Source of the DNA: Hyphomicrobiales bacterium
GTDB taxonomy: Bacteria; Pseudomonadota; Alphaproteobacteria; Rhizobiales; Rhizobiaceae
Direction: 5' to 3'
Assembly: GCA_900473795.1 (NCBI GenBank)
Contig: UCMT01000044.1
Coordinates: 1-64,000 of the forward strand
Length of the DNA stretch: 64,000 nucleotides
The stretch's first letter is position 1; each line of letters begins with the position of its first letter. A model generated the notes under the pieces. The model saw nothing but the letters and a program-made list of their open reading frames with translations, did not search any database and was not told the DNA's origin. The position numbers and the translations under genes were made by a program. Shown piece after piece: positions 23,552-48,765 of the stretch.

Positions 23552-24028
23552 TTATCTTTCGCCTCGATAATTGAAGCTTTCCAGGAAGGACTGAATGACA
23601 GATAGGCCGTCGTGTCCGGCGATCTCAAGATCAACGTAGTACAACAACATGCGCTCGTGATCGCGCAGTAAACGCAATTGCACTAAATCTGATGACGGGC
23701 CGTGAATGTACAGGTCGTCAAATTCCTGCACAAATGGTTTTAGAACTTCGCGAAACTGATGTAGCCAGCCGTTCCAATCGTCCGGCTGTATGTCTGCGAG
23801 AAGGTGCCTGGTAAGTTCAATAACACGCGCATTCTCCACCGGTCGCACTTGGTATCGCTCCAGGAGTTCACCAAGGGCATTTCCGACGAGTTGCTCTACT
23901 ATTGAGAGCGTCTGAAAATCTTGTGCCTTATCGGGGAAGAGAATTGCCATCTCTCTATACAATATTTCACCGACGAGTTCCCCAAAATGAGCCTCTCGCA
24001 GCTTCTCGGTATATTCTTCAATTTTCAT
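23552..24028 (-). CDS. Hypothetical 158-residue helical protein, linked to ETF-QO
   Basis: I do not recognise the family. The protein looks all-helical with no signal or membrane segment. Acid-rich helices such as GELVGEILYREMAILFPD and LLRDHERMLLYYVDLEIAG contain E/H patterns that recall a four-helix (ferritin-like) bundle, which is a guess. It begins five bases after the ETF-QO stop on the same strand, so it is almost certainly the last gene of the demethylation operon. Base composition is lower in GC than its neighbours, which may mark recent recruitment. Its presence in the operon hints at an accessory role in the pathway. Confidence 0.6.
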   Translation of the reverse strand: MKIEEYTEKLREAHFGELVGEILYREMAILFPDKAQDFQTLSIVEQLVGNALGELLERYQVRPVENARVIELTRHLLADIQPDDWNGWLHQFREVLKPFVQEFDDLYIHGPSSDLVQLRLLRDHERMLLYYVDLEIAGHDGLSVIQSFLESFNYRGER

Positions 24029-24033
24029 CGTCC

Positions 24034-25686
24034 CTACATCTCCGAGTAAACCGGCCCTTCGCCGCCTTGCGGCGGAGCCCAGGTGATGTTCTGGTTGGGG
24101 TCCTTGATGTCACAGGTCTTGCAGTGGACGCAGTTCTGGGCGTTGATGACGAAGACTTGCCTGCCATCCTTTTCCACCCATTCGTAGACGCCCGCCGGAC
24201 AGTAGCGCGACGACGGGCCGGCATAGATATCGTGCTCGGACCGTTTCTGCAGGTCCATGTCCTTCACCTTCAGATGGACCGGCTGGTCCTCCTCATGATT
24301 GGTGTTGGACAGGAACACCGACGACAGGCGGTCGAAGGTCAGCACGCCGTCGGGCTTGGGATAGTCGATCTTCTTGTGCTTGGTCGCAGGCTCCAGCGAA
24401 GCGGCGTCGGTCTTGCCGTGCTTCAGCGTGAACGGCGAGCTGCCGAAGATCTGGTTGATCCACATGTCGAGACCGCCCAGCGCCACGCCCAGCGCCGTGC
24501 CGAACTTCGACCACAGCGGCTTGACGTTGCGCACCCGCTTCAGGTCCTTGCCGATGTCGGAGGCGCGCCAGCTATTTTCGATCTCGATCACCTCGTCATG
24601 GGCGCGACCGCTCGCGATCGCTTCCGCCAGCTTGTCGGCCGCCAGCATCCCCGACAGCACCGCATTGTGGCTGCCCTTGATGCGCGGCACGTTGACGAAG
24701 CCGGCCGAACAGCCAATCAGCGCGCCGCCGGGGAAGGTCAGCTTCGGCACAGACTGCCAGCCGCCTTCGGTGATGGCGCGGGCGCCATAGGAGATCCGCT
24801 TGCCGCCCTCGAACGTGCCACGAATGGCCGGATGCGTCTTGAAGCGCTGAAACTCCTCGAATGGGTAGAGATAGGGATTCTTGTAGTTCAGGTGAACCAC
24901 GAAGCCGACGGCGACGGTGTTGTCTTCGAGGTGATAAAGGAACGAGCCACCGCCGGTCTTCATGCCGAGCGGCCAGCCGAACGAATGCTGGACGAGGCCC
25001 TGTTTGTGGTTCTCGGGCTTGACCTGCCAGAGTTCCTTGATGCCGATGCCGAATTTTTGCGGTTCGCGATCCTTCTGGAGATCGTACTTCGCGATCAGCT
25101 GCTTGGCGAGCGAGCCGCGCACGCCCTCGCCGATCAGCGTGTACTTGCCGAGAAGCTCCATGCCGCGGGCAAAGCTCGGGCCGGGCTCGCCGTTCTTCTC
25201 GATGCCCATGTCGCCGGTGGCCACGCCGATGACCGAACCGGCCTCGTTGTAGAGAACCTCGGTCGCGGCAAAGCCGGGGTAGATCTCGACGCCGAGTTCC
25301 TCCGCCTTGGTGGCCAGCCACCGACAGACATTGCCGAGCGAAACGATGTAATTGCCGTGATTGCTCATCAGGCCAGGCATGGCGGCATTGGGGAGACGCA
25401 GGGAGCCGGCCGGACCGAGCAGCAGGAACTGGTCGTCGGTCACCAGCGTCTTGAAGGGATGATCCGTCTCCTCGCGCCAGCCCGGCAAAAGTCGGTCAAT
25501 GCCAATAGGGTCGACCACAGCGCCGGACAGAATATGCGCGCCGACTTCGGCGCCCTTTTCCAGCACGACGACGGACAGCTCCGGATTGACCTGCTTTAGC
25601 CGGATCGCAGCCGAGAGACCGGCCGGTCCGGCACCGACGATCACCACGTCGAATTCCATGCTTTCGCGTTCAGGCATCTCTCTCAT
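24034..25686 (-). CDS. Electron transfer flavoprotein-ubiquinone oxidoreductase
   Basis: The 550-residue protein takes electrons from reduced ETF and gives them to ubiquinone at the inner membrane. It shows the FAD-binding start FDVVIVGAGPAGLSAAI (about residues 12-28), the central GWPLGMKTGGGSFLYHLED region, and at the end the 4Fe-4S ligands: a cysteine in SRYCPAGVYEWV and CVHCKTCDIKDP. Length is typical (about 550). The gene closes a chain EtfB-EtfA-PurU-FolD-ETF-QO, so it should serve flavoprotein demethylases in the same operon. Most rhizobia also have a chromosomal copy, so this is likely a dedicated second one. An ATG three codons downstream is an alternative start. Confidence 0.94.
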   Translation of the reverse strand: MREMPERESMEFDVVIVGAGPAGLSAAIRLKQVNPELSVVVLEKGAEVGAHILSGAVVDPIGIDRLLPGWREETDHPFKTLVTDDQFLLLGPAGSLRLPNAAMPGLMSNHGNYIVSLGNVCRWLATKAEELGVEIYPGFAATEVLYNEAGSVIGVATGDMGIEKNGEPGPSFARGMELLGKYTLIGEGVRGSLAKQLIAKYDLQKDREPQKFGIGIKELWQVKPENHKQGLVQHSFGWPLGMKTGGGSFLYHLEDNTVAVGFVVHLNYKNPYLYPFEEFQRFKTHPAIRGTFEGGKRISYGARAITEGGWQSVPKLTFPGGALIGCSAGFVNVPRIKGSHNAVLSGMLAADKLAEAIASGRAHDEVIEIENSWRASDIGKDLKRVRNVKPLWSKFGTALGVALGGLDMWINQIFGSSPFTLKHGKTDAASLEPATKHKKIDYPKPDGVLTFDRLSSVFLSNTNHEEDQPVHLKVKDMDLQKRSEHDIYAGPSSRYCPAGVYEWVEKDGRQVFVINAQNCVHCKTCDIKDPNQNITWAPPQGGEGPVYSEM

Positions 25687-25705
25687 TTAGCACGGGCCTC
25701 ATTAC

Positions 25706-26608
25706 CTACGAGAATTTTGGTGGCGTCTTGCCGGCCTTACGGTGGGCGGCGATAACGGTGTTTGCCATCAACATGGCGATTGTCATCGGACCGACGCCAC
25801 CGGGAACAGGGGTGATGGCACTGGCGACCTTGGCGCATTCCTCGAATGCGACGTCACCGACGAGGCGGGACTTACCCTCACCCTTTTCCGGAGCATCAAC
25901 GCGGTTGATGCCAACATCGATGACTGTCGCGCCGGGCTTTACCCAGTCGGCCTTTACCATCTCCGCACGGCCTACTGCGGCAACAAGGATATCCGCGTTT
26001 CGGCAGACACTGGCGAGTTCTTTCGTGCGTGAATGCGCCGTCGTGACCGTGGCATTGGCGGCGAGCAGCAGGGCCGACATTGGTTTACCGAAAAGGTTGG
26101 ACCGGCCGATCACGACCGCGTTGAGGCCTGAGAGGTCTTGACCGTGGACACGGCGAACGAACACCATCGCGCCAGCGGGCGTGCAGGAGAGGAGCCCGCC
26201 ATCCAGATCGCCCGTCGCGACCTTGCCGGCGTTGACAATATGCAAGCCATCGACATCCTTCTCCGGGCTGATCGACTGAATGACTGGCTCGGAGCTGAGA
26301 TGCTTAGGCAGCGGCAGTTGCACAAGGATGCCGTGGATGGCTTCATCGCCATTCAGTGTCTCGATCAGACGCGCAAGCTCTTCTTGCGTCGTCTCTTCCG
26401 GTAGCGTGTGCTGAACGGAAAGGAAGCCGCACTCCTTCGCCATCTTGCTTTTGGACGCAACATAGGCGCGGCTCGCTGGATCATTGCCGACAATCACAAC
26501 GGCAAGACCAGGTGTGACGCCCGCCTCCTTTTCCAGGACCTCAGTGGAGGTCTTCACCGAGTCAATCACAGACCCAGCAATCTGCTTGCCGTCGATAATA
26601 TTCCCCAT
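25706..26608 (-). CDS. folD: Methylene-THF dehydrogenase/methenyl-THF cyclohydrolase FolD
   Basis: The 300-residue bifunctional enzyme oxidises 5,10-methylene-THF to 10-formyl-THF in the cytoplasm. Key features are the [13 protein letters not shown] segment with the catalytic Lys (about residues 50-62), [11 protein letters not shown], the PEKDVDGLH signature and the Rossmann motif [13 protein letters not shown]. The end has [15 protein letters not shown]. It lies between purU and the ETF-QO gene in the demethylation operon. It would convert methylene-THF made by the folate-linked demethylases into formyl-THF for PurU. Likely a second, pathway-specific copy. Confidence 0.95.
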
Positions 26609-26611
26609 CAG

Positions 26612-27496
26612 TCAGCCCATCCGTTCCGAAACGTAGGAGCCTGGGCTCGCCGGGAATACGACCGTGCGGTTCCCGTTGATGAAGGTGCGGTGATGGATGT
26701 GCGCGTGGATGGCGCGGGCCAGCACCTGGCTTTCGACATCACGACCAATCGAGATATAATCCTCGGCTGACTGCGCATGAGTGATGCGGGCGACGTCCTG
26801 TTCAATGATCGGTCCTTCGTCAAGATCGGCCGTAACGTAATGCGCCGTCGCTCCAATCAGCTTCACACCGCGCTCGAAGGCCTGCTTGTAGGGGTTAGCG
26901 CCCTTGAAGCTCGGCAAGAAGGAATGATGGATGTTGATAATCTTGCCCGACATCTTCTGGCACATCTGATCAGACAGGATCTGCATGTAGCGAGCGAGCA
27001 CAATGAGTTCGGTGCCGGTCTGCTCAACCACGTCCATGATACGGGCTTCCGCCTGCGGCTTGTTGGCCTTAGTCACCGGGATATGGTGGAACGGGATGTC
27101 GTGGTTCACGACGACCTTCTGGTAGTCGAAATGATTGGAGACGACGCCGACGATCTCGATCGGCAGCGCGCCGATCTTCCAGCGGTAGAGCAGATCGTTG
27201 AGGCAATGGCCGAAACGCGACACCATCAGCAACACCTTCATTTTTGTGTCGCCGCTATGGAAGTCGCTGATCATGCCAAACTTCTTTTGGACGGGCTCAA
27301 AAGCCTCTGTGATCTCCTGGATGCTTACACCTTGTTCACTGGTGAAGGTAAGTCTCATAAAGAACATACCCGTGTTGAGATCGTCGAACTGCGAGGAGTC
27401 AACGATGTTGCAGCCTTTGTCCGCCAGCAACCCGGTAATAGCGGCCACAATTCCGCGGGTGGATACGCATGATACGTTGAGGATGTACGTGTTCAT
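26612..27496 (-). CDS. purU: Formyltetrahydrofolate deformylase PurU
   Basis: The 294-residue enzyme hydrolyses 10-formyl-THF to formate and THF. An N-terminal ACT domain (about residues 1-80, NTYILNVSCVSTRGIVAAIT) precedes the formyltransferase-like catalytic domain, which has INIHHSFLPSFKGANPY, IGATAHYVTADLDEGPIIEQ and the catalytic N/H/D set within these. I chose the ATG at 27496, which matches family starts and has GGA upstream; 27508 is possible. Together with FolD it regenerates free THF for the demethylases and ends the one-carbon flow at formate. folD follows three bases downstream. Confidence 0.93.
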   Translation of the reverse strand: MNTYILNVSCVSTRGIVAAITGLLADKGCNIVDSSQFDDLNTGMFFMRLTFTSEQGVSIQEITEAFEPVQKKFGMISDFHSGDTKMKVLLMVSRFGHCLNDLLYRWKIGALPIEIVGVVSNHFDYQKVVVNHDIPFHHIPVTKANKPQAEARIMDVVEQTGTELIVLARYMQILSDQMCQKMSGKIINIHHSFLPSFKGANPYKQAFERGVKLIGATAHYVTADLDEGPIIEQDVARITHAQSAEDYISIGRDVESQVLARAIHAHIHHRTFINGNRTVVFPASPGSYVSERMG

Positions 27497-27523
27497 TTTC
27501 AGGTCCATTTGATGTTGTGTTGA

Positions 27524-28453
27524 TTAGATGGCCTGCTCAAGATCAGGTAGTGCCTCGAAGAGATCAGCCACGAGACCGTAGTCCGCCACCTGGAAGATTG
27601 GGGCTTCCTCGTCCTTGTTGATGGCGACGATGACCTTCGAGTCCTTCATGCCGGCCAGATGCTGGATAGCGCCGGAGATGCCGCAGGCGATATAGAGTTG
27701 CGGCGCGACCACCTTGCCGGTCTGGCCGACCTGCCAGTCATTGGGTGCATAACCGGCGTCGACAGCGGCGCGCGATGCGCCGACGGCGGCGCCGAGCTTA
27801 TCGGCAACAGGAAGGATGACCTCCTGGAACTTTTCCGACGAGCCGAGTGCGCGGCCACCCGAGATGATGATCTTTGCCGAGGTCAGTTCCGGACGGTCCG
27901 ACGAGGACAAAGCATCGCCAACGAAGGAGGACAGGCCGGGATTGGCGGCAGCCGCGATGGCTTCAACCGCAGCCGAACCGCCGTCACCGTTCGAGGCGAA
28001 GCTGGCCGTGCGCACGGTGATGACCTTCTTGGCATCGCCCGACTGGACGGTCTGGATGGCATTGCCGGCATAGATCGGCCGCTTGAAGGTGTCGGCCGAA
28101 ACAACCTCGGTGATTTCCGAGATCTGGGCGACGTCGAGCAGGGCGGCAACGCGCGGCAGCACGTTCTTGCCCACCGATGTCGCCGCCGTGATGATGGTGT
28201 CATAGGCCGGCGCCAGCGAGACGATCAGGGCTGCCAGCGGCTCGGCCAGATTGTTGGCCAGATCGTCGCTATCGGCCAGTAGCACCTTGGCGACGCCCGA
28301 CAGCTTGGCGGCTGCGTCGGCTGCGGCCTGCGCGCCCTTGCCGGCGACCAGCACATGCACGTCGCCACCGATCTTTGCGGCTGCGGTCAGCGTCTTGGTC
28401 GTCTGGTCCGAAAGCGTTGCATTGTCGTGGTCAGCCAGAAGAAGAATGGTCAT
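27524..28453 (-). CDS. etfA: Electron transfer flavoprotein alpha subunit
   Basis: The 309-residue FAD-binding subunit has the C-terminal FAD domain with [48 protein letters not shown] (plus [12 protein letters not shown]) and [16 protein letters not shown], which are family signatures. It pairs with EtfB encoded just upstream and accepts electrons from flavin dehydrogenases. The neighbouring TMADH-like and DMGDH-like proteins are known types of ETF donors. Length is standard. Confidence 0.95.
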
Positions 28454-28477
28454 GATCGTATATTCCTTTCCTGAACC

Positions 28478-29227
28478 TTACAGAACGCCGGCTTCGTTTT
28501 TCAGCTTGTCGACAAGCTCGGCGACGGACTTGACCTTGATGCCGGCCTTGCGGCCACCCGGCTCTTCGGTCTTGAGGACCTTGAGGCGCGGCGTCGTGTC
28601 GACGCCGAAATCGGCGGGCGTCTTCTTGTCGAGCGGCTTCTTCTTGGCCTTCATGATGTTCGGCAGCGAGGCGTAGCGCGGCTCGTTCAGGCGAAGATCC
28701 GTGGTGACCACGGCCGGAAGCTTGATCTCGATGGTCTGCAGACCGCCATCGACTTCGCGCGTCACTTGCGCCTTGCCGTCGCCGATCTCGACCTTGGAGG
28801 CAAATGTGCCCTGTGCCCAGCCAAGAAGGGCGGACAGCATCTGGCCGGTCTGGTTGCTGTCGTCGTCGATCGCCTGCTTGCCGACGATGACGAGGCCGGG
28901 CTGTTCGGCCTCGACGACGCCCTTGACGATCTTGGCCACTGCCAGCGGTTCGATAACGTCATCGGTCTCGACCAGAATGGCGCGATCCGCGCCCATGGCG
29001 AGTGCCGTGCGCAGCGTTTCTTCCGCCTTGGCCGGGCCGATGGAGACGACAACGACTTCGGACGCCTTGCCGGCTTCCTTCAGGCGCAGGGCTTCTTCGA
29101 CCGAAATTTCGTCGAACGGGTTCATCGACATCTTGACGTTGGCAAGCTCGACGCCCGAACCGTCCGCCTTGACGCGGATCTTCACGTTGTAGTCGACAAC
29201 GCGCTTGACTGTGACCAGAATTTTCAT
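28478..29227 (-). CDS. etfB: Electron transfer flavoprotein beta subunit
   Basis: The 249-residue subunit binds AMP and forms the ETF dimer with EtfA. It begins [20 protein letters not shown], followed by [20 protein letters not shown] (family signature) and [18 protein letters not shown]. The end [17 protein letters not shown] is also typical. It lies between the GcvT-like gene and etfA with gaps of 15 and 24 bases, within one operon, so ETF is co-expressed with the demethylases. Confidence 0.95.
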
Positions 29228-29242
29228 GAACGATCCTCCTGC

Positions 29243-30355
29243 TCAAGCACGCGAACGGATGGACTTTGGGTCGTAGACGGCGGTCCTGCGAACCGTGACA
29301 CCTGTTCCATCTTCCAGTGTGAGAACTTGTCCGTCGCCTGCGCAGGCGATCTGGACGTAAGCCAAGGCAAGTCCGTGCCCGACAGTGTGTCCATGCGCAG
29401 CCGAGGTGACTTTTCCGATGGCGTCACCACCGAGCTTCACCACCGTTCCAATCGCGGGAAGAACAGAACCCACAGGAAGTTCGAGAAGAACGAGCATGCG
29501 CTCCACTCCGTCCTGCTTCTGTCGTTCGACAACCGCCTTGCCAGGATAGGATGCGTCCTTCGGTTTCACGGTCCAACCCAATCCCGCTTCAACGGGTGTG
29601 GTGTCCTCACCGATATCCCGGCCCCAGATCGGATAACGCTTCTCGATACGAAGCGAGCCCATCGACCCGGCCCCGCACGGCACGAGCCCGAGCGGCTTGC
29701 CAGCTTCCAGGAGGGCGTCATAGAAACTCTCGATGTGCTCGGTCGGCACCCAAAGTTCGTAGCCAAGTTCGCCGGTGAAACCCGTTCGCGTGACGATGAC
29801 GTCGTCCACGCCGGCTACCGTTGTCTTGACCATCCCGAAACCAGGAAGCGCTTGGCCGGAAACATCCCCACTTGTAACGCGCTCCAGGCAGGCACGCGAC
29901 TGCGGCCCCTGAAGGGAAAGCGACACGTATCGATATCCGAGCGAAACGACGTGCACGCCGTAAGGCTTTCCGCACTCCTTGAGGTAGGCTTCGACCTTTT
30001 CGACACGATGGGGCGCAGGAACGACCCAGAACGTGTCCGGCGCCGGACGATAGGTGATAACATCGTCGATGAAGCCGCCATTTTCGTTCAGGATGCCGCC
30101 ATAGATGCCCCTTCCCGGAGCGACCTTTGACATATCCGCCACGAACGTCTCGTTCAGAAATGTCTCGGCTTTTGCGCCTGCGACTTCGACAAGAAACTGC
30201 CCGAAAATCTCGAACAGGCCTGCCGCGTTTCGCACGGCCTCATGTTCTGATTTCGCATCCGTAAAGACGTTGGCGGTGAGAAAATGGGCCTTCTCGGCCA
30301 TCTCTGCATTGCGCGCCTTGAAGGCGTGATAAAGCGGCGTCCGTTTTGCGGTCAT
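29243..30355 (-). CDS. Free-standing GcvT-like tetrahydrofolate methyl/aminomethyltransferase
   Basis: The 370-residue protein is a single GcvT-family unit: an N-terminal folate-binding domain and C-terminal barrel. It has LNENGGFIDDVITYR with the folate-contacting Asp, VSLSLQGPQSRACLERV, TRTGFTGELGYELWVP and EAGLGWTVKP. The family moves one-carbon units to THF (glycine cleavage T protein, DMSP demethylase DmdA, folate parts of DMGDH). No glycine-cleavage P or H gene is nearby, so glycine cleavage is unlikely. It sits between the StcD-like demethylase and etfB, which suggests capture of the methyl carbon as methylene-THF. Start chosen at MTAKRTP; a longer frame runs into the gene before it. 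Confidence 0.85.
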   Translation of the reverse strand: MTAKRTPLYHAFKARNAEMAEKAHFLTANVFTDAKSEHEAVRNAAGLFEIFGQFLVEVAGAKAETFLNETFVADMSKVAPGRGIYGGILNENGGFIDDVITYRPAPDTFWVVPAPHRVEKVEAYLKECGKPYGVHVVSLGYRYVSLSLQGPQSRACLERVTSGDVSGQALPGFGMVKTTVAGVDDVIVTRTGFTGELGYELWVPTEHIESFYDALLEAGKPLGLVPCGAGSMGSLRIEKRYPIWGRDIGEDTTPVEAGLGWTVKPKDASYPGKAVVERQKQDGVERMLVLLELPVGSVLPAIGTVVKLGGDAIGKVTSAAHGHTVGHGLALAYVQIACAGDGQVLTLEDGTGVTVRRTAVYDPKSIRSRA

Positions 30356-30375
30356 GATTGTCGATTCCTTCGATC

Positions 30376-32415: not shown

Positions 32416-32419
32416 ATCG

Positions 32420-33661: not shown

Positions 33662-33685
33662 CTTCAGTTCCCCTTTTTTAGTGTA

Positions 33686-36169
33686 TCAGCCTCGCATGAT
33701 CGCCCCGGCGGGGTCATAAAAAGCGCCGAGTTGGACACGGATCGGATAAAGCTTACCTGCCACCTGCACCTCGAAACGGCCTTCATCGATCCAATCCTTG
33801 GTGACGCCATTCTCGCGGTTGAGGGAAGCAAGTCCAATCATGGCGTTCAGCCTCCAACCCCAGCCGCCGGACGTGACATGACCAACGAGTGCGCCATCCT
33901 TGAAGACCGGCTCGTTGTGAATGAGATATGGACCTGTCTCAGCGGACGCACCCTCTACCAACACGGAAACGCTGCGATGCGGCGTGGCGGCACCATACGA
34001 CTGCTTCTGGCGCATCAGCGCCTCGCGACCGACAAAACCTTCCTTAGCGAGCTTCACAGCAAAGCCGAGGCCGGTTTCGATTGGCGTGTCTTCCTCACCG
34101 ATATCGTGGCCGAAGTGCCGGAAGCCCTTTTCGAGGCGGCAAGCACCGAGTGCAAACATGCCGGCGTGGCGCAGACTTAGTGGAGCGCCGGCACGCATGA
34201 TTTCGTCGTATACGTGCGCCGTGAACTCGCTCGAAATCATCAACTCATAACCGAGCTCGCCCAGGAACGAGCGGCGGATGGCCCAGACGCGCGCGAAGCC
34301 AAGGTCAATCTCGCGCGCCGCGCCGAACGGGAATGCCTCATTGGACAGGTCGTCCGCCGAAAGCTGCTGGAGGATCGCACGGGACTGCGGGCCATGTATG
34401 GTCAAAAGACCATAGGCCGAGGTCGCGTCGAAAATCTCGAAGCGCCAGGCGGGTTCTGCATGGGCGCGAATGTGGGTTTGGTCGCGGATCTGGCTTGGAT
34501 GACCGGTCACGACCATAAACTGTTCCGCGGCGATGCGGGTCACGGTGACATCCGCCTCGATCCCGCCCTTCTCGTTGAGAAACTGCGTGTAGACCGAGGT
34601 GCCGACCGCAACATCGATTTCGGCGCCGGAGACACGGTTCAGAGCCTTGACGGCATCCGGTCCCTGCACGAGGATCTTTCCGTACATCGACTGGTCAATG
34701 AGCACCGCATGATCGCGTGCTGCAAAACACTCTGCCTTGACCCGTTCCGACCAGTCCTGCCAACCCAGACTTGCACGCTCAGTCCAGCTCGGGTTTTCGA
34801 GGTCGAAGTACATCGGCACTTCCCAGCCGATACGCTCGGCCATAACGGCCCCGGCCGCAAGTAGACGGTCATGCAGCGGTACCCGGCGAACGCCGCGCGC
34901 TGTCTCGATCTGCCGGCCCGGCCAATGCAAGCCCCAATGAAGACCGACGCCTTCGGTCACACGCTCGGCATTGTAGGCCATGTTCTTCTGGAAAGGATGC
35001 GCTCGTGCGGCCAGCATCGAGGCGACAGCGCGCGGTGGTTGGCCCTCGGTCATCCAGGCTGCCATGGTGAGACCGACACCGCCAGAATTGAGGATGCCGT
35101 TCGAGTTCATGCCGGCGGCGATGAAAAGACCGGGCATTTCCGGAGCGGGACCAATGTAGGGCCGTCCGTCCGGTGTGAAGCTCTCCGGTCCATTGAAGAA
35201 GGTTTGGATACCCATCGTTTCAAGAGCCGGGAAACGGGTAAAGAACTTCTCCAGTACCGGCTCCACATGATCCATGTCGAAGGGTAGCTCGTCGAACTCG
35301 AAACTCTCCGGGATGCCCCGACGCCCCCAGGCCTTGCCGCGCGCTTCGAAGCCACCTATCAGAAGCTTGCCGGCATCCTCCTTGGTGTAAAGCCGTTCCT
35401 CAAGCACGACGAGACCAGGCAATGTGCGCGGCAGGTCGGGAATGGCTTCGGTGAGGATGTAGAAATGTTCGGCCGCGTGGAGCGGAACCGTCACGCCATG
35501 CTCGGCGGCAAAACGCAGCGACCACATGCCCGCCGCCAGAAGAACCTTCTCCGTTGCAATAACGCCCTGGTCTGTCTCGACGCCCGCCACCTTGCCGTTC
35601 CGTGTCAGGATACGAATGGCCTTCGTGTTCTCGAAGATTTGCGCGCCCCGTGCCTTGGCGCCTTTTGCCAAAGCCTGGGTCACGTCAAGTGGATTAACCT
35701 GCCCGTTCGAGGGAACAAGGAAGCCGCAATGCACATCGGACGTATCGACGAGTGGCCAAAGCTCGTTTATGTCCTCGACCGAGAGAATGCGACTTTCGAT
35801 CTTCATGCGGGCCGCATGATCCTGATTCCGGAGCAGTTGCTCGGCGCGGATATCCGACAAGGCCAGATGCAGGGTTCCGTTCTGCTTGTAACCGGTTGCC
35901 TGCCCTGTTTCGATTTCCAGTTCTGTAAAGAGGCGCGCAGTATATTTCGAAAGCTCGGTCTGCGCTGAGCTCTCACGCAACTGGCCCACAATGCCGGCCG
36001 CATGCCACGTAGTGCCGGACGCAAGCTGCTTGCGTTCCAAAAGGACGGCTCCTTCCATCCCCTTCTTCGCAAGGTGATAAAGTGTCGAGACACCGATGAT
36101 GCCGCCGCCAATAATGACGGCCGGTGCGGATGGCGGAAGAGCTTTGGTCACGTTCACAGCTGTATCCAT
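33686..36169 (-). CDS. Dimethylglycine/sarcosine dehydrogenase-like flavoprotein with folate domain
   Basis: The 827-residue protein has the full DMGDH/SARDH layout: FAD oxidoreductase (about residues 15-385, VIIGGGIIGVSTLYHLA), a short bridging domain (about 388-440), then GcvT (about 445-720) and GcvT C-terminal domains. The motif SGTTWHAAGIV contains the histidine (about 56) that carries covalent FAD in DMGDH. The folate half shows FLNEKGGIEADVTVTR and ELGYELMIS. The FAD half would oxidise an N-methyl group and the folate half convert it to methylene-THF, with electrons going to ETF. Substrate is not certain: dimethylglycine, sarcosine or another N-methyl amino acid. It overlaps the aldehyde dehydrogenase gene by 16 bases. 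Confidence 0.88.
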   Translation of the reverse strand: MDTAVNVTKALPPSAPAVIIGGGIIGVSTLYHLAKKGMEGAVLLERKQLASGTTWHAAGIVGQLRESSAQTELSKYTARLFTELEIETGQATGYKQNGTLHLALSDIRAEQLLRNQDHAARMKIESRILSVEDINELWPLVDTSDVHCGFLVPSNGQVNPLDVTQALAKGAKARGAQIFENTKAIRILTRNGKVAGVETDQGVIATEKVLLAAGMWSLRFAAEHGVTVPLHAAEHFYILTEAIPDLPRTLPGLVVLEERLYTKEDAGKLLIGGFEARGKAWGRRGIPESFEFDELPFDMDHVEPVLEKFFTRFPALETMGIQTFFNGPESFTPDGRPYIGPAPEMPGLFIAAGMNSNGILNSGGVGLTMAAWMTEGQPPRAVASMLAARAHPFQKNMAYNAERVTEGVGLHWGLHWPGRQIETARGVRRVPLHDRLLAAGAVMAERIGWEVPMYFDLENPSWTERASLGWQDWSERVKAECFAARDHAVLIDQSMYGKILVQGPDAVKALNRVSGAEIDVAVGTSVYTQFLNEKGGIEADVTVTRIAAEQFMVVTGHPSQIRDQTHIRAHAEPAWRFEIFDATSAYGLLTIHGPQSRAILQQLSADDLSNEAFPFGAAREIDLGFARVWAIRRSFLGELGYELMISSEFTAHVYDEIMRAGAPLSLRHAGMFALGACRLEKGFRHFGHDIGEEDTPIETGLGFAVKLAKEGFVGREALMRQKQSYGAATPHRSVSVLVEGASAETGPYLIHNEPVFKDGALVGHVTSGGWGWRLNAMIGLASLNRENGVTKDWIDEGRFEVQVAGKLYPIRVQLGAFYDPAGAIMRG

Positions 36170-37635
36170 GCAGTCTTGAGGTCGAGATATTTATCGAGTG
36201 CGTGCGGAGACTTGTCATGGCCATTGCCAGACTGCTTGACACCACCAAGCGGCACGGTGAGGTCCGAGCCGCCATAGGTGTTGACGTGTACCAAGCCAGC
36301 GCGAAGGCTCTCCACCATTCGATGTGCCCGCGAAAGATTGGAGGTCCAAACCGCAGACGCCAGGCCGAAATCAGTGCCATTTGCCACGCGGATAGCATCC
36401 GCTTCGTCGGTAAAGGGCGTGATGGCGAGGACAGGGCCAAAGACCTCGTTCCGCGAAACTTCCATTTCCGGACGAACCTTTGACAGGACGGTAGGCGCCA
36501 TGAACCACCCTCCCGTCTCCTGCAGGACGCGGCCGCCGCCGGTTAAAAGCTCAGCACCTTCCATTTGAGCCCGCGCGGCAAAGCCGAGACTACGGTCCAG
36601 ATGTGTCTCAGAGTTGAGGGCGCCGGCTTCGGTCGTGAGATCAAGCGGATCTCCAACCTTCATGGACGCAGCGATCTTTGCCACCTTGTCTGCGAACTGG
36701 TCGGCAATTGACGCCTCGACCAGGAGACGCGACCCTGCAATGCAGACCTGACCGGAATTACGGAAGATGCCGTAAGCAGCGACTTTCGCTGCCTTGTCCA
36801 GGTCGGGCGCGTCGGCAAAGACAATGTTCGGGCTCTTGCCACCAAGTTCGAGATAGACCCGCTTCAGGTTGGAACGGGCGGAATATTCGAGAAGTTTTCG
36901 CCCGACGCCACCGGAGCCGGTGAAGGCCATCACGTCGACGTCCATCGACAACCCAAGTGCTTCGCCGGCAACAGCACCCTGTCCCGTTACCACATTGAAG
37001 ACGCCAGGCGGAACGCCGGCTTCAAGCGCCAACTCGGCAATCCGCAGCAAAGTGAGCGAAGCGGTCTCCGCAGGCTTCAGCACGACACTGTTGCCGGCTG
37101 CGAGTGCGGGCGCAATTTTCCAGGCGCCGATCATCAGCGGGAAGTTCCAGGGCACAATGACAGCCACCACACCAATCGGCTGCCTGTGCACCAGCGCGAG
37201 CACATCGCTCTGGGTCGGCGCAATCTCGCCGTATGTCTTATCGATCAGCTCCGCATAGTACCGGAAGGTCGAAGCCGCACTCATGGGTTCGGCCTTCAAC
37301 GCCATGGCGATTTCGGTGCCGTTGTCGCGCACGCCAAGGACCGCGATCTTCAGGGCTTCTTTCTCGATGAGGTCGGCCAGCTTCAGCAGCACCTTCTTCC
37401 GGTGGCTAGGCGCCGTCCGCGACCAGACTCCCGCCTCAAACGCGGCGCGGGCCGACTGGCAGGCGAGATTGACATCCTCCCGGCCCGCATCGGCAAGGGT
37501 TGTTAGACGCGTTCCGTCGAGCGGCGAGAGAACCTCGAGATCGTGACCGGATAGGGCGGAGCGCAACTTGCCGTCAATAAGTAGGCCTTGCGGCGGGATG
37601 TGATCCCCCCGCATCGCATTGATCTGGTCCTGCAT
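36154..37635 (-). CDS. NAD(P)-dependent aldehyde dehydrogenase (PuuC/betaine-aldehyde type)
   Basis: The 493-residue enzyme oxidises an aldehyde to a carboxylate. It shows PWNFPLMIGAWKIAPALAAG, the glycine motif FTGSGGVGRKL, the general base Glu in LELGGKSPNIVF and the nucleophile Cys in NSGQVCIAGSRLLV, plus NEVFGPVLAITPF. Nearest known types are gamma-glutamyl-aminoaldehyde, aminobutyraldehyde and betaine aldehyde dehydrogenases. It lies between the TctA gene (1-base overlap) and the DMGDH-like gene. With the aminotransferase at 42.3 kb it could oxidise a semialdehyde from the deaminated amine; formaldehyde is a less likely substrate. Confidence 0.88.
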   Translation of the reverse strand: MQDQINAMRGDHIPPQGLLIDGKLRSALSGHDLEVLSPLDGTRLTTLADAGREDVNLACQSARAAFEAGVWSRTAPSHRKKVLLKLADLIEKEALKIAVLGVRDNGTEIAMALKAEPMSAASTFRYYAELIDKTYGEIAPTQSDVLALVHRQPIGVVAVIVPWNFPLMIGAWKIAPALAAGNSVVLKPAETASLTLLRIAELALEAGVPPGVFNVVTGQGAVAGEALGLSMDVDVMAFTGSGGVGRKLLEYSARSNLKRVYLELGGKSPNIVFADAPDLDKAAKVAAYGIFRNSGQVCIAGSRLLVEASIADQFADKVAKIAASMKVGDPLDLTTEAGALNSETHLDRSLGFAARAQMEGAELLTGGGRVLQETGGWFMAPTVLSKVRPEMEVSRNEVFGPVLAITPFTDEADAIRVANGTDFGLASAVWTSNLSRAHRMVESLRAGLVHVNTYGGSDLTVPLGGVKQSGNGHDKSPHALDKYLDLKTAWIQL

Positions 37636-39125
37636 CAGCTTGCCTCCACAGTCTTATTCCTGAAGTGGTTCCAGGTAAAAGTCGCGACGGCGACGACAGC
37701 AAGCGTGAGAAACGCCGCAGCGAGAGGACGCGTCAGGAAAATCGTCGGATCTCCGTCTGAGATGCTGAAGGCCTGCTTGATCCTGCCTTCCATCATTGGT
37801 CCGAGCACAAGCCCGACTACCATCGGGAAAGCCGGCACTCCGTTCTTCAACATGAAGCGGCCCACAATGGCGAATGCCAGTGCGACCAAACCGTCCGTAA
37901 TGCGGAAGTTCTGCGTATATGTGCCGATAAAGCCCAGAATCATGATCGCAGCGCCGATAACGCGCGGCGAGATTGACGACAGGCGCACAACATATTTGGT
38001 GAAGATCAGCAGGAAGATCATCACGAAGATGTTGAGCAGGAACAGTGAAATGTAGAGGCCAGAAATGAAGTCCGCATGCTCAATGAAAAGCTGCGGCCCG
38101 GGCACGATGTTGTGGATCATGAACACCGCTAGCAGCATAGCCATCAGCGGATCGGCCGGAATGCCCAACGAAAGCAGCGGCACGAGAACGGTCGAGGTGC
38201 AGGCGTTGATAGAGACTTCGGACGCCACCAGACCTTCAGGCGAACCCTTGCCGAACTCCTCCGGCTTCTTCGAGAAGCGGCGGGCAAGCGAATAGGATAG
38301 GAACTGCGCCCCGAATTCGCCGACGCCCGGAAGCAGCCCCATAACGAGCCCGATGAGCGATGACCGGATCACGGTTGCACGGTACTTGAAAACTTCGAAC
38401 AGACCAACAAACCGTCCGGTCGACGAGAGGTTCTCCGGTACTTTTGGCGGCGACTTAGTTTCGAGCAAGATGAAGGCCTGGCTCAGCGCAAAGAGGCCGA
38501 TGACCATTGGCACCATTGGAATACCGCCCAGCAGCCAAGTCTGATCGAAGGTGTAGCGCAGCGTATGGTGCGGGCTCTCGAAGCCGACGGTTCCGAGGAA
38601 CATTCCGATGCCGAACGTCAAGATCGCGCCACGGATGTTCTGGTGATGAGCAAGAACGACCGAAACCGATGCGAGGATCATGACCGCCGCGAATTCCGGC
38701 GGGCCGAATTTTGCAGCAATCTTGGCCATGAAGGGGGCCAGAAAGATTAGTGCGAGAATCGAGATTATGCCGCCGACGAAGGACGATGAATAGGCCAGCG
38801 ACAGGGCCCGCATCGGCTGGCCCTTTTGCGCCAGCGGATAGCCGTCATATGTCGTCAGCACGTTGACCGGCGTTCCGGGTACTCTAATCAGGATCGCCGG
38901 AATGGCTCCACCATACCATGCACCACCATAGCATCCGAGCAGAAGGATAATGCCTGGAAGCGGCTCCATAGTCAGCGTGAACGGCAGGGCGATGGCCATC
39001 GCGCCGGCGGGCTCCATGCCTGGAATTGCGCCAACCAGGATCCCGGCGATGGCACCGATCAGGAGCGCGGCGATCACCTGCCATTGTGCGACCTCCTGGA
39101 AGCCGAGGATGATCGAATCCATCAT
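37635..39125 (-). CDS. tctA: Tripartite tricarboxylate-type transporter, large membrane subunit
   Basis: The 496-residue protein is the large membrane subunit (about 12 hydrophobic segments) of a TctABC transporter, a secondary carrier using a periplasmic binding protein. Motifs include GAIAGILVGAIPGMEPAGAM, GGAIPAILIRVPGTP, LIGLVMGLLPGVGEFGAQFL and LGIPADPLMAMLL. The start was set where ATGATG overlaps the tctB stop. The family imports carboxylates widely, not only citrate, so the pathway substrate, a zwitterionic amino acid derivative, is a plausible cargo. Confidence 0.9.
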   Translation of the reverse strand: MMDSIILGFQEVAQWQVIAALLIGAIAGILVGAIPGMEPAGAMAIALPFTLTMEPLPGIILLLGCYGGAWYGGAIPAILIRVPGTPVNVLTTYDGYPLAQKGQPMRALSLAYSSSFVGGIISILALIFLAPFMAKIAAKFGPPEFAAVMILASVSVVLAHHQNIRGAILTFGIGMFLGTVGFESPHHTLRYTFDQTWLLGGIPMVPMVIGLFALSQAFILLETKSPPKVPENLSSTGRFVGLFEVFKYRATVIRSSLIGLVMGLLPGVGEFGAQFLSYSLARRFSKKPEEFGKGSPEGLVASEVSINACTSTVLVPLLSLGIPADPLMAMLLAVFMIHNIVPGPQLFIEHADFISGLYISLFLLNIFVMIFLLIFTKYVVRLSSISPRVIGAAIMILGFIGTYTQNFRITDGLVALAFAIVGRFMLKNGVPAFPMVVGLVLGPMMEGRIKQAFSISDGDPTIFLTRPLAAAFLTLAVVAVATFTWNHFRNKTVEAS

Positions 39126-39703
39126 AGATATTCTCCAAGCGCGTTGCCTACCCAATCAGGGAAGACAAGCATGATAGGGGGGAGTGGGAACCAGATGCCG
39201 AGGCCGACGCGGAAGGCGAGAACGATTGCCACGGTGACAGCGAGCCCGGTAAGGCTCCACTTCGCACCCCGAAGACCTGACATGAAATATAGGACCTGCA
39301 TGAAGAGGATGGAGGCCAACGTGAACCCAATCAGCCATACCCCGCCGATGAAGGCCAAGAAGGTGGCTGCATAGGCGAGACACCTCCCCATCCCTGCAAA
39401 GGCTTCCTTTGCCTTCGCAGAAAATCCCGGGTTCCGGCGCAGCCTGAGACAATCTAAGGCCAGTCCGCCGCCGCCGAGAAGGGCGACTATCAGCACGATG
39501 AAAGGCCAGGACCACGGCTCCTGGATCCAGCCGAGTGGACGCTTGCCTGCGACCGTCGCAAAGGGCAGAAGAATGAGCGCGAACGCTGCAAAAATCCAGA
39601 ATAGGGTCCCTGCCGTGGATGCGGCTTCGGGTGTGACTTCATCCTCAAACTGCGGCGTTTCCGCATCCGCAGCCGTTGGGATGTGATCGACATGGGCAGT
39701 CAT
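39122..39703 (-). CDS. tctB: Tripartite tricarboxylate-type transporter, small membrane subunit
   Basis: The 193-residue protein has about four to five hydrophobic helices (for example LFWIFAAFALILLPFATVAG and PWSWPFIVLIVALLGGGGLA) after a polar N-terminus. This fits the poorly conserved TctB subunit. I chose the ATG at 39703, preceded by AGGATATC, over a GTG at 39721. Its stop overlaps the tctA start. It belongs with the tctC and tctA genes on either side. Confidence 0.82.
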   Translation of the reverse strand: MTAHVDHIPTAADAETPQFEDEVTPEAASTAGTLFWIFAAFALILLPFATVAGKRPLGWIQEPWSWPFIVLIVALLGGGGLALDCLRLRRNPGFSAKAKEAFAGMGRCLAYAATFLAFIGGVWLIGFTLASILFMQVLYFMSGLRGAKWSLTGLAVTVAIVLAFRVGLGIWFPLPPIMLVFPDWVGNALGEYL

Positions 39704-39742
39704 GGCGCGATATCCTGACACGTTATAGACCGATGCGAAGAC

Positions 39743-40681
39743 TTATTTCTTCATCTTCGAGAAGAGGTCTTTGACCGCTTCAAAATCCTTGTCGATGCGT
39801 GCCTGCGCCTCGGCTGGGCCCTGCCAATAGACTTCTGCGCCGGTTGTGGCCGAGATTTGCTTAACCTGCTCTGACATCATCGCCTTTTCCGCGATTGATC
39901 CGAGCAAATCCTTCACCTCCTGGGGCGTGCCCTTCGGGACAAAGAGACCAGACCACAGAGCAAAGGTGGGACCCGTGATCTGGTCCCGCAGCAGAGGCGC
40001 CTCAGGGAAGACAGAAATCGGCTTTTCGGTGTAGGCGGCGAGAACCTTGATGTCGTCTTTACAAGCTAGAACCAGCCCAACCGTAGAGTTCATCACGTCC
40101 GCATCGCCGTTGGCTAGCGTCGTACAGTCCGTCACGTCATAGCCGGTTTCAGTTGAGAACTTAAACCCGAGCTGACGCGCAGCCTCAAACGTTTGTTGTG
40201 CGGGGATGGTCTCGAAGCCGAAATGCGCCAGCTTGACCGGGTTCTTCTTCGCATATTCAGCCAGTTCAGCAAGATTATTGTAGGGCGCATCCTTCTTTGC
40301 GGCCAGGATAAAGGGGAAGTTCATATTGAGGCCGACGACTTCCATGTCTTCGCGCCCGAAGGGCGTGATGCCTTGAACGATGTAGCTCGTCGGTATGTCG
40401 ATCAGAAAGTTGCCAACCGTGTAGCCGTCGGCGGCGGAGGTCAGCACAGATTGGGCACCTTCGACACCGTATCCGCCGGGTCGATTGACAACCTTCGCGG
40501 GGACGCCTGTCTGCTTCGTAAATTCTTCCGCTATCAGGCGCACTAGCTGATCATCGACGTCCCCCGGCGGCCAGGGTTCGATGATCGTGATAGGCCGCTC
40601 CGGGTATTCGGCGAGAGCGTTTCCGACCATTCCGGTTGTCGCCATGAGCGCAACAAGAGCGCCGTTCAGGAAATTTTTCAT
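39743..40681 (-). CDS. tctC: Tripartite tricarboxylate-type transporter, periplasmic binding protein
   Basis: The 312-residue protein has a signal peptide (KNFLNGALVALMATTGMVGN then ALAEYPE) and a TctC/Bug-type binding domain: YPERPITIIEPWPPGDVDDQ, VVNRPGGYGVEGAQSVLTSA and SGLFVPKGTPQEVKDLL. Bug proteins capture carboxylate solutes. In the common motif the strand reads 'PWPPGG'; here the second Gly is Asp, in the ligand-facing loop, so specificity may be unusual. As first gene of the minus-strand operon it marks the promoter, facing the iclR gene across 112 bases. Confidence 0.9.
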   Translation of the reverse strand: MKNFLNGALVALMATTGMVGNALAEYPERPITIIEPWPPGDVDDQLVRLIAEEFTKQTGVPAKVVNRPGGYGVEGAQSVLTSAADGYTVGNFLIDIPTSYIVQGITPFGREDMEVVGLNMNFPFILAAKKDAPYNNLAELAEYAKKNPVKLAHFGFETIPAQQTFEAARQLGFKFSTETGYDVTDCTTLANGDADVMNSTVGLVLACKDDIKVLAAYTEKPISVFPEAPLLRDQITGPTFALWSGLFVPKGTPQEVKDLLGSIAEKAMMSEQVKQISATTGAEVYWQGPAEAQARIDKDFEAVKDLFSKMKK

Positions 40682-40793: not shown

Positions 40794-41618
40794 ATGATCG
40801 AGAGCAAAGACAAGCGCCCTGGTTCCACCATGAAAACGATCGACAAAGCCATGTTTTTACTTGGCTTTTTCGCGCCTGAAACGCCTGAATATCGACTTAG
40901 CGATCTTGCGCGCGCAGCTGACATGGACAAGGTCACAACGATGCGGATCCTCGCTTCGCTTGTTGCCAGTGGTTTTGTGGAACAGCACCCGGAGACCCGG
41001 CGCTACCGTCTGGGCACCGCAGTCCTGCGGCTCGCCCGCATCCGTGAGGCGAGTTTTCCGGTGATTGCGGTACTACAGCCGATACTTGAGACCCTAACGG
41101 GAGAGGTCGGGGAATCGACGCATGCATGCTTATTCTCCGGCAAGGGCATGACGACAATCGCTATTGCCGAGCCGCACCGATCTACGAGAGTATTTATTGA
41201 TCCGGCGCAGCCTCTTCCCATCCACGCCACAGCTTCCGGCCTGGTGTTTCTGGCCTACGCAGACGATGCGATCGTCAATGAAGCTCTGCGGCGCCTCAAT
41301 GTCCCGACAACCTATACCGATAGCACCGTCAAGTCTGAGACTGAGCTTCGACAGCGGCTTGAGGAGATACGGAAGAACGGCTGCGCCATCTCCAGCAGGA
41401 GTTTTGAAAATGACGTCACTGGTATCGCCGCTCCAATTTTCAATTGGCACGGCAAGATCCAGGCGACGATCTCAGCGGCATGCATCTCCACGCGCATGAC
41501 ACCAGAGCTGGAACGCGAAATTGAGGGCGTCGTGCTGCGGGCATCGGTCACGGCAACCCGGGCGATGGGTGGAGAGCCGCCGAATACCTTTCTCATGAAG
41601 ATCAAGGAGAACGCATAA
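40794..41618 (+). CDS. IclR-family regulator
   Basis: The 274-residue protein has an N-terminal winged helix (about residues 12-75, TIDKAMFLLGFFAPETPEYRL and DKVTTMRILASLVASGFVE) and a C-terminal IclR effector domain (about 90-260) with FIDPAQPLPIHATASGLVFL, NGCAISSRSFENDVTGIAAP and ATISAACISTRM. It is divergent from the tct-demethylase operon and directly followed by the HAD and aminotransferase genes, so it probably controls both sets in response to the substrate or an intermediate. Start at 40794; MKTIDKAM (40830) is an alternative. Confidence 0.9.
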   Translation: MIESKDKRPGSTMKTIDKAMFLLGFFAPETPEYRLSDLARAADMDKVTTMRILASLVASGFVEQHPETRRYRLGTAVLRLARIREASFPVIAVLQPILETLTGEVGESTHACLFSGKGMTTIAIAEPHRSTRVFIDPAQPLPIHATASGLVFLAYADDAIVNEALRRLNVPTTYTDSTVKSETELRQRLEEIRKNGCAISSRSFENDVTGIAAPIFNWHGKIQATISAACISTRMTPELEREIEGVVLRASVTATRAMGGEPPNTFLMKIKENA

Positions 41619-42266: not shown

Positions 42267-42295
42267 ACAAAACCGATTCCAAGGAGTACGATACG

Positions 42296-48761: not shown

Positions 48762-48765
48762 GGAA

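Follow-up and report, generated by a model that had tools for sequence, protein, structure and literature searches.

A Plasmid-Borne Operon with a UPF0261 Protein in a Rhizobiaceae Bacterium Is Proposed To Act in the Degradation of N-Methylated Plant Hydroxyphenethylamines

A 64,000-nucleotide stretch of a Hyphomicrobiales bacterium of the family Rhizobiaceae (GenBank assembly GCA_900473795.1, contig UCMT01000044.1, positions 1 to 64,000 of the forward strand), referred to here in its full length as the window, carries an operon of fourteen genes (positions 23552 to 40681, minus strand) that encodes a TctABC transporter, an aldehyde dehydrogenase (ALDH), two candidate N-demethylases, a UPF0261 protein, and enzymes of electron transfer and one-carbon metabolism. 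We propose, from sequence comparisons, that this operon and its neighbors degrade an N-methylated hydroxyphenethylamine from plants, such as hordenine, N-methyltyramine, or perhaps the quaternary amine candicine, and we give this reading a probability of roughly 0.57. Genes, families, conservation, and linkage are observed directly, and from them we infer every reaction and the substrate.

In the proposed route, the amine would be taken up by TctABC, and a quaternary amine would lose one methyl group to a Rieske oxygenase. The remaining methyl groups would be taken off singly by a flavoenzyme resembling old yellow enzyme (OYE) and by an enzyme resembling dimethylglycine dehydrogenase (DMGDH), captured on tetrahydrofolate by GcvT domains, and released as formate via FolD and PurU, with electrons passing to electron transfer flavoprotein (ETF), to ETF-ubiquinone oxidoreductase (ETF-QO), and on to ubiquinone. 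A class III aminotransferase would convert the primary amine to an arylacetaldehyde, which ALDH would oxidize to hydroxyphenylacetate and an MhaA/MhaB-like hydroxylase would convert to homogentisate; HmgA, MaiA, and fumarylacetoacetase (FAH) would open the ring, and acetoacetyl-coenzyme A (CoA) synthetase (AACS) would activate the acetoacetate. An IclR-family regulator is the likely switch.

The strongest single argument that UPF0261, a HAD-type hydrolase, and the aminotransferase act together on aromatic ethylamines is a sister cluster in the same genome. On contig C69 (locus L095, positions 1843 to 15896) the genes run in the order IclR, UPF0261 (49% identity), HAD (65%), aminotransferase (72%), phospho-lyase, and kinase, and continue with HpaR, HpaF, HpaE, HpaD, a DOPA-decarboxylase-like enzyme, HpaG, HpaH, and HpaI, followed by an RND efflux pair. 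HpaE, HpaD, HpaH, and HpaI score over their curated cutoffs, and the cluster has the appearance of a locus for catecholamines or L-DOPA.

The association of UPF0261 with the cleavage of hydroxyphenylacetates was also found at the level of whole genomes. Among 337 Alphaproteobacteria drawn evenly, UPF0261 (at least 54% identity) occurred in 9 and HpaD (E values no higher than 1e-85) in 5, every one of which also belonged to the 9 (Fisher P = 3.6e-9, or 1.3e-7 without the genome of the window), values that, like those that follow, ignore shared ancestry, G366 and G470 being of one genus; the 54% limit was drawn after the matches had been seen, and with G442 (48%) included HpaD is found in 5 of 10. 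HmgA, present in 40 of the 337, was found in 6 of the 9 UPF0261 genomes versus 34 of the 328 others (P = 1.3e-4), and the protocatechuate dioxygenase PcaH, the control for versatile genomes, was present in 65, comprising 4 of the 9 versus 61 of the 328 (P = 0.07). Within one family (f74), UPF0261 and HpaD occur together in G579, and neither is present in G272, G403, or G500. HpaD lies 3 to 6 kb from UPF0261 in G366 and G579. Elsewhere, G251 combines Tct, ALDH, and UPF0261 with an aminotransferase, without HpaD or HmgA; G535 has UPF0261 with DMGDH and a phospho-lyase; and in G434 and G527 UPF0261 was the sole query match in the stretch taken, with HmgA elsewhere in the genome.

The UPF0261 (Tm-1-like) protein of the operon (32420 to 33661) matches PF06792 with 162.9 bits and PF23189 with 194.1 bits (cutoff, 27), and its PDB matches, 9mpy and Tm-1 3wry, are nearly full length over the UPF0261 domain. 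Tm-1, the plant relative, blocks a virus. With UPF0261 as the marker of the module, we surveyed the best 80 of at least 538 related loci from GTDB genomes, with flanks of at most 10 kb examined on each side; 47 of the 80 stretches exceeded 21 kb, and the rest were ended by contig ends. An aminotransferase was present in 32 loci, ALDH in 32, a kinase with a phospho-lyase in 11, DMGDH in 32, OYE in 35, and both demethylases in 29. The pattern looks like a core of UPF0261, aminotransferase, and ALDH to which the demethylases would form an optional front end, and because UPF0261 recurs without the demethylases we assign it, provisionally, to the part of the route leading from amine to aldehyde.

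Two routes of hydroxyphenylacetate ring cleavage are represented near UPF0261, with at least two such genes in 9 of the 80 loci, a count without a matched background, in place of which the comparison of 337 genomes serves. At least two homogentisate-type genes were found in six loci (L014, L015, L046, L067, L082, and L084) and at least two homoprotocatechuate genes in four (L019, L029, L030, and L046), so that L046 has both. Curated cutoffs are exceeded by HpaE and HpaH of L019 and by HpaD of L046, and the decarboxylase of L019, whose best PDB matches are DOPA and aromatic amino acid decarboxylases, has homologs (56 to 100%) in 3 of the 80 loci. On the L046 contig, from a member of the Rhodobacteraceae, homoprotocatechuate genes and a decarboxylase, then DMGDH-UPF0261-OYE, then homogentisate genes lie side by side. 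In L030, L082, and L084, UPF0261 accompanies ring genes, with no aminotransferase, no ALDH, no kinase and lyase together, and no DMGDH and OYE together. FAD_binding_3 (FAD3) and DUF2783 genes appear at the edge of the stretch in L012 and L013, and by contig position hmgA lies about 14 to 17 kb away in L009 and L011 to L013. Eight further UPF0261 loci on plasmids included five with ring genes (Sinorhizobium fredii NXT3, Rhizobium WSM1274, R. hidalgonense, Gemmobacter fulvus, and Ruegeria AD91A), and when the genomes carrying the first 50 loci were searched, 43 of 50 had HmgA and 38 had HpaD over cutoff.

The alternative class III enzyme of some loci, represented by the L071 protein, has the phospho-lyases 5g4i and 6tor as its best PDB matches and an APH-type kinase as its neighbor, a pair that would suit β-hydroxylated amines such as octopamine and synephrine. 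In R. hidalgonense (L004, 12604 to 22472), ALDH and a 72% DMGDH stand with an amino acid permease, a phospho-lyase-like enzyme, an APH kinase, a short-chain dehydrogenase/reductase, and IclR, a group apart from the OYE-UPF0261 operon on the same plasmid. A sulfatase-family gene, assigned by a family scan of the L057 copy, is found near UPF0261 in L053, L057 (Planktomarina), L016, L032, L048, L051, and L079, and sulfated amines or phenols are possible natural substrates. The additional partners seen in other loci (sulfatase, thiamine pyrophosphate enzyme, iolC-like kinases, and diguanylate cyclase) showed no common thread.

A preliminary description of this DNA, made from the sequence alone, had proposed stepwise N-demethylation with local ETF, ETF-QO, and folate enzymes and release of formate. 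The proposal is supported, because the covalent-FAD motif of the DMGDH-like protein and the triad and 4Fe-4S cysteines of the OYE-like protein are kept and because the genes for ETF, PurU, FolD, and ETF-QO follow directly. The DMGDH-like candidate (33686 to 36169) would join an FAD domain to a folate-binding GcvT domain: Pfam DAO, FAO_M, GCV_T, and GCV_T_C score over cutoffs, giving the predicted protein the layout of the family (FAD-DAO, FAO_M linker, and GCV_T), and its best PDB matches are 5l46 and 4p9s (dimethylglycine dehydrogenase). The motif TTWHAAG, which we take to be the covalent-FAD histidine motif of the dimethylglycine dehydrogenase family, is present in the window protein, in 33 of 33 homologs, and in 2 of 2 paralogs. 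Two plasmid loci (L006 and L007) have a 51% DMGDH paralog beside ETF-PurU-FolD-ETF-QO and served as paralogs only; UPF0261, the aminotransferase, and ring genes were not among the query matches there.

The OYE-like flavoprotein (30376 to 32415), the proposed second N-demethylase on the strength of its PDB matches and pocket residues, is closest to 6l6j (634 bits; domain name only), histamine dehydrogenase (610), and trimethylamine dehydrogenase (TMADH; 490). Residues were counted over 37 sequences, including that of the window, with more than 600 aligned residues, shorter rows having been dropped. We use the numbering of TMADH and take its triad to be Y169, H172, and D267, its aromatic bowl to be Y60, W264, and W355, and its 6-S-cysteinyl FMN to be attached at Cys30. 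The Tyr-His-Asp triad and Trp264 are constant in 37 of 37 sequences, and the 4Fe-4S cysteines of the window protein are kept. The Cys30 position is Ala in all 37; position 60 (Tyr in TMADH) is Leu in 31, Ile in 4, and Met in 2; and position 355 (Trp in TMADH) is acidic, Asp or Glu, in every one. The protein thus lacks the Cys30-FMN and the aromatic bowl of TMADH, W264 being the only bowl residue kept. The available portion of PMC10180351 gives the pocket of a Rhizobium histamine dehydrogenase as Gln60, Trp263, Asp354, and Cys30-FMN and reports that the active clones of an Asp354 library were without substitution; the Trp and the acid are common to both proteins, and Gln60 and Cys30 are not. 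Such an acid would suit a substrate that is cationic or phenolic more than one that is a carboxylate. OYE paralogs (about 51%) from S. meliloti and Shinella were considered as references for StcD, named as N-methylproline demethylase in the part of PMC12239276 available, and were used as paralogs only, their surroundings not being stc-like.

These results bear differently on the two halves of the preliminary description's substrate, an N-methylated carboxylate. The demethylation stands, and the carboxylate, for which TctABC is the main clue, is less well supported. We favor an aromatic ethylamine because class III aminotransferase, ALDH, and homogentisate or homoprotocatechuate genes recur together and because an acid occupies the position of TMADH Trp355.

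The operon itself is as first described, in that fourteen contiguous open reading frames (ORFs) lie on the minus strand. With the listed ORF starts, except for the GcvT-like gene, which was instead taken to begin with the ATG at 30355, the lengths of the 13 junctions are 21, -34, -1, -16, 24, 4, 17, 15, 24, 15, 3, 19, and 5 bases; the genes are not mostly overlapping, as had been stated, since only 3 of the 13 junctions overlap and the other ten are spaced by 3 to 24 bases. The family assignments made earlier hold in Pfam and NCBIfam scans, and for the Tct genes through annotated orthologs. The first gene, tctC (39743 to 40681), encodes a substrate-binding protein of the tripartite tricarboxylate transporter (TTT) family, with a 56% ortholog in strain NXT3 annotated as tripartite tricarboxylate transporter substrate binding protein; the small permease gene tctB (39122 to 39721) and the large permease gene tctA (37635 to 39155) have NXT3 orthologs at 41% (TctB) and 70%. 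An ATG about 30 bases inside the listed tctA ORF may be the true start. The identities of these three genes rest on annotated orthologs because an NCBIfam scan gave no match to any of them.

The free GcvT-like folate-binding protein (29243 to 30357 as listed) matches PF01571 and PF08669 and scores 245 bits against an NCBIfam GcvT cutoff of 300. The ETF genes etfB (28478 to 29227) and etfA (27524 to 28453) match NCBIfam EtfB-type and EtfA-type models and have annotated NXT3 orthologs at 93% and 82%, respectively; purU (formyltetrahydrofolate deformylase, 26612 to 27508) matches TIGR00655 with 335.6 bits (cutoff, 286) and folD (25706 to 26608) matches NF010785 with 492.7 bits (cutoff, 396). ETF-QO (24034 to 25686) is identified by PF05187 and PF21162. 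It is the only ETF-QO found in its genome (1 match), where at least one was found in 40 of 41 genomes (this one included) and two relatives of the same genus with a 99% DMGDH ortholog have 2 and 4 copies; the plasmid gene may have displaced a chromosomal copy, or the chromosomal copy may be missing from the assembly. The last gene (23552 to 24028) encodes a 158-residue protein, predicted to be a helical bundle of ferritin-like shape, that had no Pfam or NCBIfam match.

The unit of fourteen genes is real, but the preliminary description ended it too early: an iclR-HAD-aminotransferase arm (40794 to 43651) and a homogentisate cluster (43766 to 52171) travel with it in other rhizobia. Divergent from tctC on the plus strand are the gene for the IclR-family regulator (40794 to 41618; PF09339 and PF01614), whose best NCBIfam match, PcaR/PcaU, reaches 131 bits, below the cutoff of 285; that for the HAD-IA hydrolase (41619 to 42266; PF00702), with a 65% counterpart on C69; and that for the class III (omega-type) aminotransferase proposed to convert amine to aldehyde (42296 to 43651; NF005683, 734.5 bits; cutoff, 575), for which the best PDB matches are 6s54 (aspartate aminotransferase family) and 5lh9 (omega transaminase). 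The 112-base region between iclR and tctC is strongly conserved, and because it is near-identical throughout in the five loci used, a separate conserved operator is not discernible. Within the operon, the ALDH proposed to oxidize arylacetaldehyde (36154 to 37635, minus strand) scores 544 bits with NCBIfam PuuC, below the cutoff of 850, and 449 to 463 bits with HpaE, BADH, and StyD models. ALDH family scores were tried as a discriminator and failed to separate aromatic from aliphatic substrates.

Beyond the aminotransferase, and on the minus strand except for maiA, lies the homogentisate cluster. It comprises genes for AACS (43766 to 45931; TIGR01217, 983 bits; cutoff, 521), whose match begins at residue 79, so that the true start is probably further in; a DUF2783 small protein (45983 to 46162), a candidate MhaB-like coupling protein, 70% identical to an annotated DUF2783 protein of G. 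fulvus; an FAD_binding_3 hydroxylase (46155 to 47789; NF006002, 755 bits; cutoff, 416), a candidate MhaA-like enzyme converting hydroxyphenylacetate to homogentisate; a metallo-β-lactamase (MBL)-fold metallohydrolase (47811 to 48827; PF00753); FAH (48766 to 50034; PF01557 and PF09298); hmgA, for homogentisate 1,2-dioxygenase (50081 to 51466; PF20510 and PF04209); and maiA, for maleylacetoacetate isomerase (51551 to 52171, plus strand), 54% identical to the annotated NXT3 MaiA. The homogentisate set of hmgA, maiA, and FAH is together in the window, and the predicted functions of the window's genes cover the entire route from hydroxyphenylacetate to acetoacetyl-CoA. The candidate MhaA/MhaB pair, a 544-residue FAD protein with DUF2783 beside the hmg genes, is likened by size and context to MhaA (566 residues) and MhaB (60 residues), which, in the part of PMC3053370 available, make homogentisate from 3-hydroxyphenylacetate (3-HPA); that paper also cites 1-hydroxylation of 4-hydroxyphenylacetate in other bacteria. 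The genome has a second hmgA copy, on contig C57. The MBL gene stands beside FAD3 in L002, L004, L005, L014, L015, L046, L067, L082, L084, and L090, and the protein is similar, at scores below the cutoff, to SoxH-type "quinoprotein relay" hydrolases.

Comparison of neighborhoods shows how far the set holds together. We place the island on a plasmid because repABC-type genes (10189 to 13809) and a Ti-type traA (20054 to 23257) are in the same window. Of the relatives found, Rhizobium giardinii H152 (L009) is the nearest, with 95.6% DNA identity over 23512 to 43623; H152 and isolate R129_A (L010) keep all 14 genes in order, with 88 to 99% protein identity, and L005 and L011 keep 13 of 14, the 158-residue gene not being present in the stretches examined. 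Rhizobium WSM1274 keeps the operon and the homogentisate genes, at 78 to 99% for the genes compared with the window; the 158-residue gene and the Rieske gene were not found in the stretch examined. In R. hidalgonense the part from UPF0261 to ETF-QO adjoins iclR, HAD, aminotransferase, and the homogentisate genes, and ALDH-DMGDH lies about 21 kb further on. S. fredii NXT3 has a rearranged set, and Yoonia keeps Tct, aminotransferase, DMGDH, UPF0261, OYE, a two-piece ALDH match, and a Rieske ortholog. That all these genes form a fixed unit is therefore not supported: the NXT3 and Yoonia stretches gave no match to the GcvT-like gene, ETF, PurU, FolD, and ETF-QO were not found in the 30 kb surrounding the Yoonia genes, and ALDH-DMGDH stands off in R. 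hidalgonense.

About 13 kb from the operon, a Rieske oxygenase gene (53359 to 54684, plus strand) encodes a candidate for the first demethylation of a quaternary amine. Its best PDB match is 3n0q (putative), followed by 4qup and 3vca (demethylase/ring-hydroxylating dioxygenase), which we take to be Stc2, and by carnitine monooxygenase; the best NCBIfam match, GbcA, at 291 bits, is far below the cutoff of 670 and does not make the protein a GbcA. Stc2, CntA, and GbcA form a group of quaternary-amine Rieske demethylases, and the closest solved and named relatives of the predicted protein fall in that group, so it may supply the first step for a quaternary amine. Yoonia has a 60% ortholog beside its operon, and a partial one stands at a contig end in L013. 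The gene is followed, also on the plus strand, by those for a reductase for the oxygenase (54642 to 55763; Fer2 and NAD_binding_1, with weak BenC/GbcB similarity) and a methyl-accepting chemotaxis protein (55955 to 58435; MCPsignal, HAMP, and PDC), a possible substrate sensor; R. hidalgonense has a 45% homolog of this last protein some 2 kb away from its hmgA. In Mesorhizobium 131-2-5 (L103, 2456 to 17444) a 48% Rieske protein, a reductase, an FAD oxidoreductase, an aminotransferase, ALDH, an amidohydrolase, and a mandelate racemase are encoded together, perhaps as another quaternary-amine route. At 59196 to 61597 the window has genes for an alanine racemase and then a DAO-type dehydrogenase, with no link to the operon seen.

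Several observations, together with the limits on the counts and P values given above, weigh against a hydroxyphenethylamine. TTT transporters usually carry carboxylates, and TctABC fits a betaine better than tyramine; in G. fulvus an APC permease takes the place of Tct. Neither the aminotransferase family nor the ALDH family identifies a substrate, and the two OYE paralogs (about 51%) likewise have Asp at position 355. Of the 80 loci, 24 have none of the four elements named above (aminotransferase, ALDH, kinase with lyase, or DMGDH with OYE). Among the 29 loci that have the two demethylases together, only L014 and L046 show at least two ring-cleavage genes in the stretch examined, most marine demethylase loci have no ring genes nearby, and no ring-cleavage genes were found in 3 of the 8 plasmid UPF0261 loci (Yoonia, R. 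pomeroyi, and P. pseudonitzschiae). In the genome of the window, HpaD lies 7 kb from the 49% UPF0261 copy and not from that of the operon, and in G470 and G558 HpaD and UPF0261 are on different contigs. A close Rieske ortholog was found in only 2 of 50 genomes (E value, 1e-110), DMGDH orthologs (at least 67% identity) are sporadic, in 7 of 201 genomes including this one, and the rhizobial examples share descent. In Ruegeria AD91A, UPF0261 has genes of the proline racemase family and for cis-3-hydroxy-L-proline dehydratase some 5 to 10 kb away. Finally, PMC3053370 describes MhaAB of P. putida U as highly specific for 3-HPA, so that the substrates may be meta-hydroxylated amines.

The alternative that takes the transporter at its word is an aliphatic omega-betaine, which we consider unlikely though well short of negligible. 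TctABC would import γ-butyrobetaine, β-alanine betaine, carnitine, or a relative; the Rieske, OYE-like, and DMGDH-like enzymes would demethylate it; the class III enzyme would yield succinate or malonate semialdehyde and ALDH the acid; and the homogentisate genes would be unrelated cargo. The PDB matches of the aminotransferase include 4-aminobutyrate and β-alanine transaminases, carnitine monooxygenase is among the Rieske relatives, the phospho-lyase and kinase of some loci would also suit demethylated carnitine, and the scarcity of ring genes near marine demethylase loci would be expected. However, an aliphatic betaine leaves unexplained the linkage of UPF0261, aminotransferase, and ALDH to two hydroxyphenylacetate pathways and a DOPA-decarboxylase homolog, the co-occurrence of HpaD in 5 of 5 genomes, and the sister cluster on C69.

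A betaine of an aromatic amino acid would reconcile TctABC with homogentisate: tyrosine betaine or N-methyltyrosines would enter via the transporter and proceed through tyrosine and its keto acid to homogentisate, and hppD adjoins the cluster in G. fulvus. We regard this as improbable, as 4-hydroxyphenylpyruvate dioxygenase was not recognized among the window genes scanned (part of the ORFs), a hydroxyphenylacetate-type hydroxylase with a small partner is present instead, and the ALDH would be left without a task. Least credible to us is a stachydrine or hydroxyproline-betaine type of substrate, with the OYE-like enzyme as an N-methylproline demethylase; the OYE/TMADH family membership, the Stc2-like Rieske oxygenase in the island, and the proline-type genes of AD91A speak for it, but no proline-type gene was recognized in the operon or beside the core in NXT3 or Yoonia, the AD91A locus is without DMGDH or OYE, and the acid in the OYE pocket argues the other way. 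The homarine pathway was provisionally set aside, because its products are N-methylglutamate and glutamate and it is not known to use aromatic dioxygenases.

The enzymes encoded by the operon are of known kinds. Glycine betaine is demethylated by GbcAB and DgcAB with ETF, FolD, and PurU, and stachydrine is catabolized by Stc2 and StcD. The island resembles these routes in its Rieske oxygenase for a quaternary step, OYE-type enzyme for a tertiary amine, ETF, and folate-dependent release of formate, and differs from them in having in addition a two-domain DMGDH-like enzyme, an aminotransferase, ALDH, UPF0261, and homogentisate genes. The OYE-like protein aligns with histamine dehydrogenase and TMADH over most of its length, with triad, Trp264, and 4Fe-4S cysteines in common, but without Cys30 for covalent FMN and with Tyr60 replaced by Leu, Ile, or Met and Trp355 by Asp or Glu. 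With the homogentisate and homoprotocatechuate routes for 3- and 4-hydroxyphenylacetate the island shares hmgA, FAH, maiA, and a flavoprotein of MhaA size with a DUF2783 protein of about MhaB size (the latter comparison from the available part of PMC3053370), and sister loci share HpaD, HpaE, HpaF, HpaG, HpaH, and HpaR (and HpaI on C69) with the homoprotocatechuate route; unlike those routes, it would receive its substrate from an amine by way of the aminotransferase and ALDH, and it includes UPF0261. As in the ethanolamine-phosphate phospho-lyase route, 11 of the 80 sister loci and C69 have a class III enzyme and an APH kinase that replace or join the aminotransferase, a pair not present in the window operon. 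The UPF0261 protein matches the domain that it shares with plant Tm-1 nearly in full (PDB 9mpy and 3wry; PMC5028733), but here it is a free protein in a catabolic operon. Among the matches listed, from literature mostly outside subscription journals, no publication described this combination of genes or its link to UPF0261, in agreement with the earlier claim of an unpublished combination, and searches on hordenine, tyramine, octopamine, dopamine, stachydrine, trigonelline, and UPF0261 returned nothing on the gene set.

A broader reading, tentative and somewhat short of even odds, would make UPF0261 a dedicated component of a module that is widespread in proteobacteria, is assembled from exchangeable parts, and acts on aromatic amines of biogenic origin (tyramine, dopamine, octopamine, and N-methylated forms of these). 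The module would use an aminotransferase, or a kinase with a phospho-lyase, to reach the aldehyde; demethylases, a DOPA-decarboxylase-like enzyme, and either ring route would plug in; and its range would extend from rhizobia to marine Rhodobacteraceae, Planktomarina included, and in reduced form to Granulosicoccaceae. If this holds, the UPF0261/Tm-1 family would gain a first metabolic setting and a testable role, and rhizobia would be able to consume neuroactive amines of plants. If the reading of the window is right, a single plasmid island would take an N-methylated plant amine to central metabolites with its own electron-transfer, one-carbon, and ring-cleavage enzymes, and would show how rhizosphere bacteria could use or remove allelochemicals of the hordenine type.

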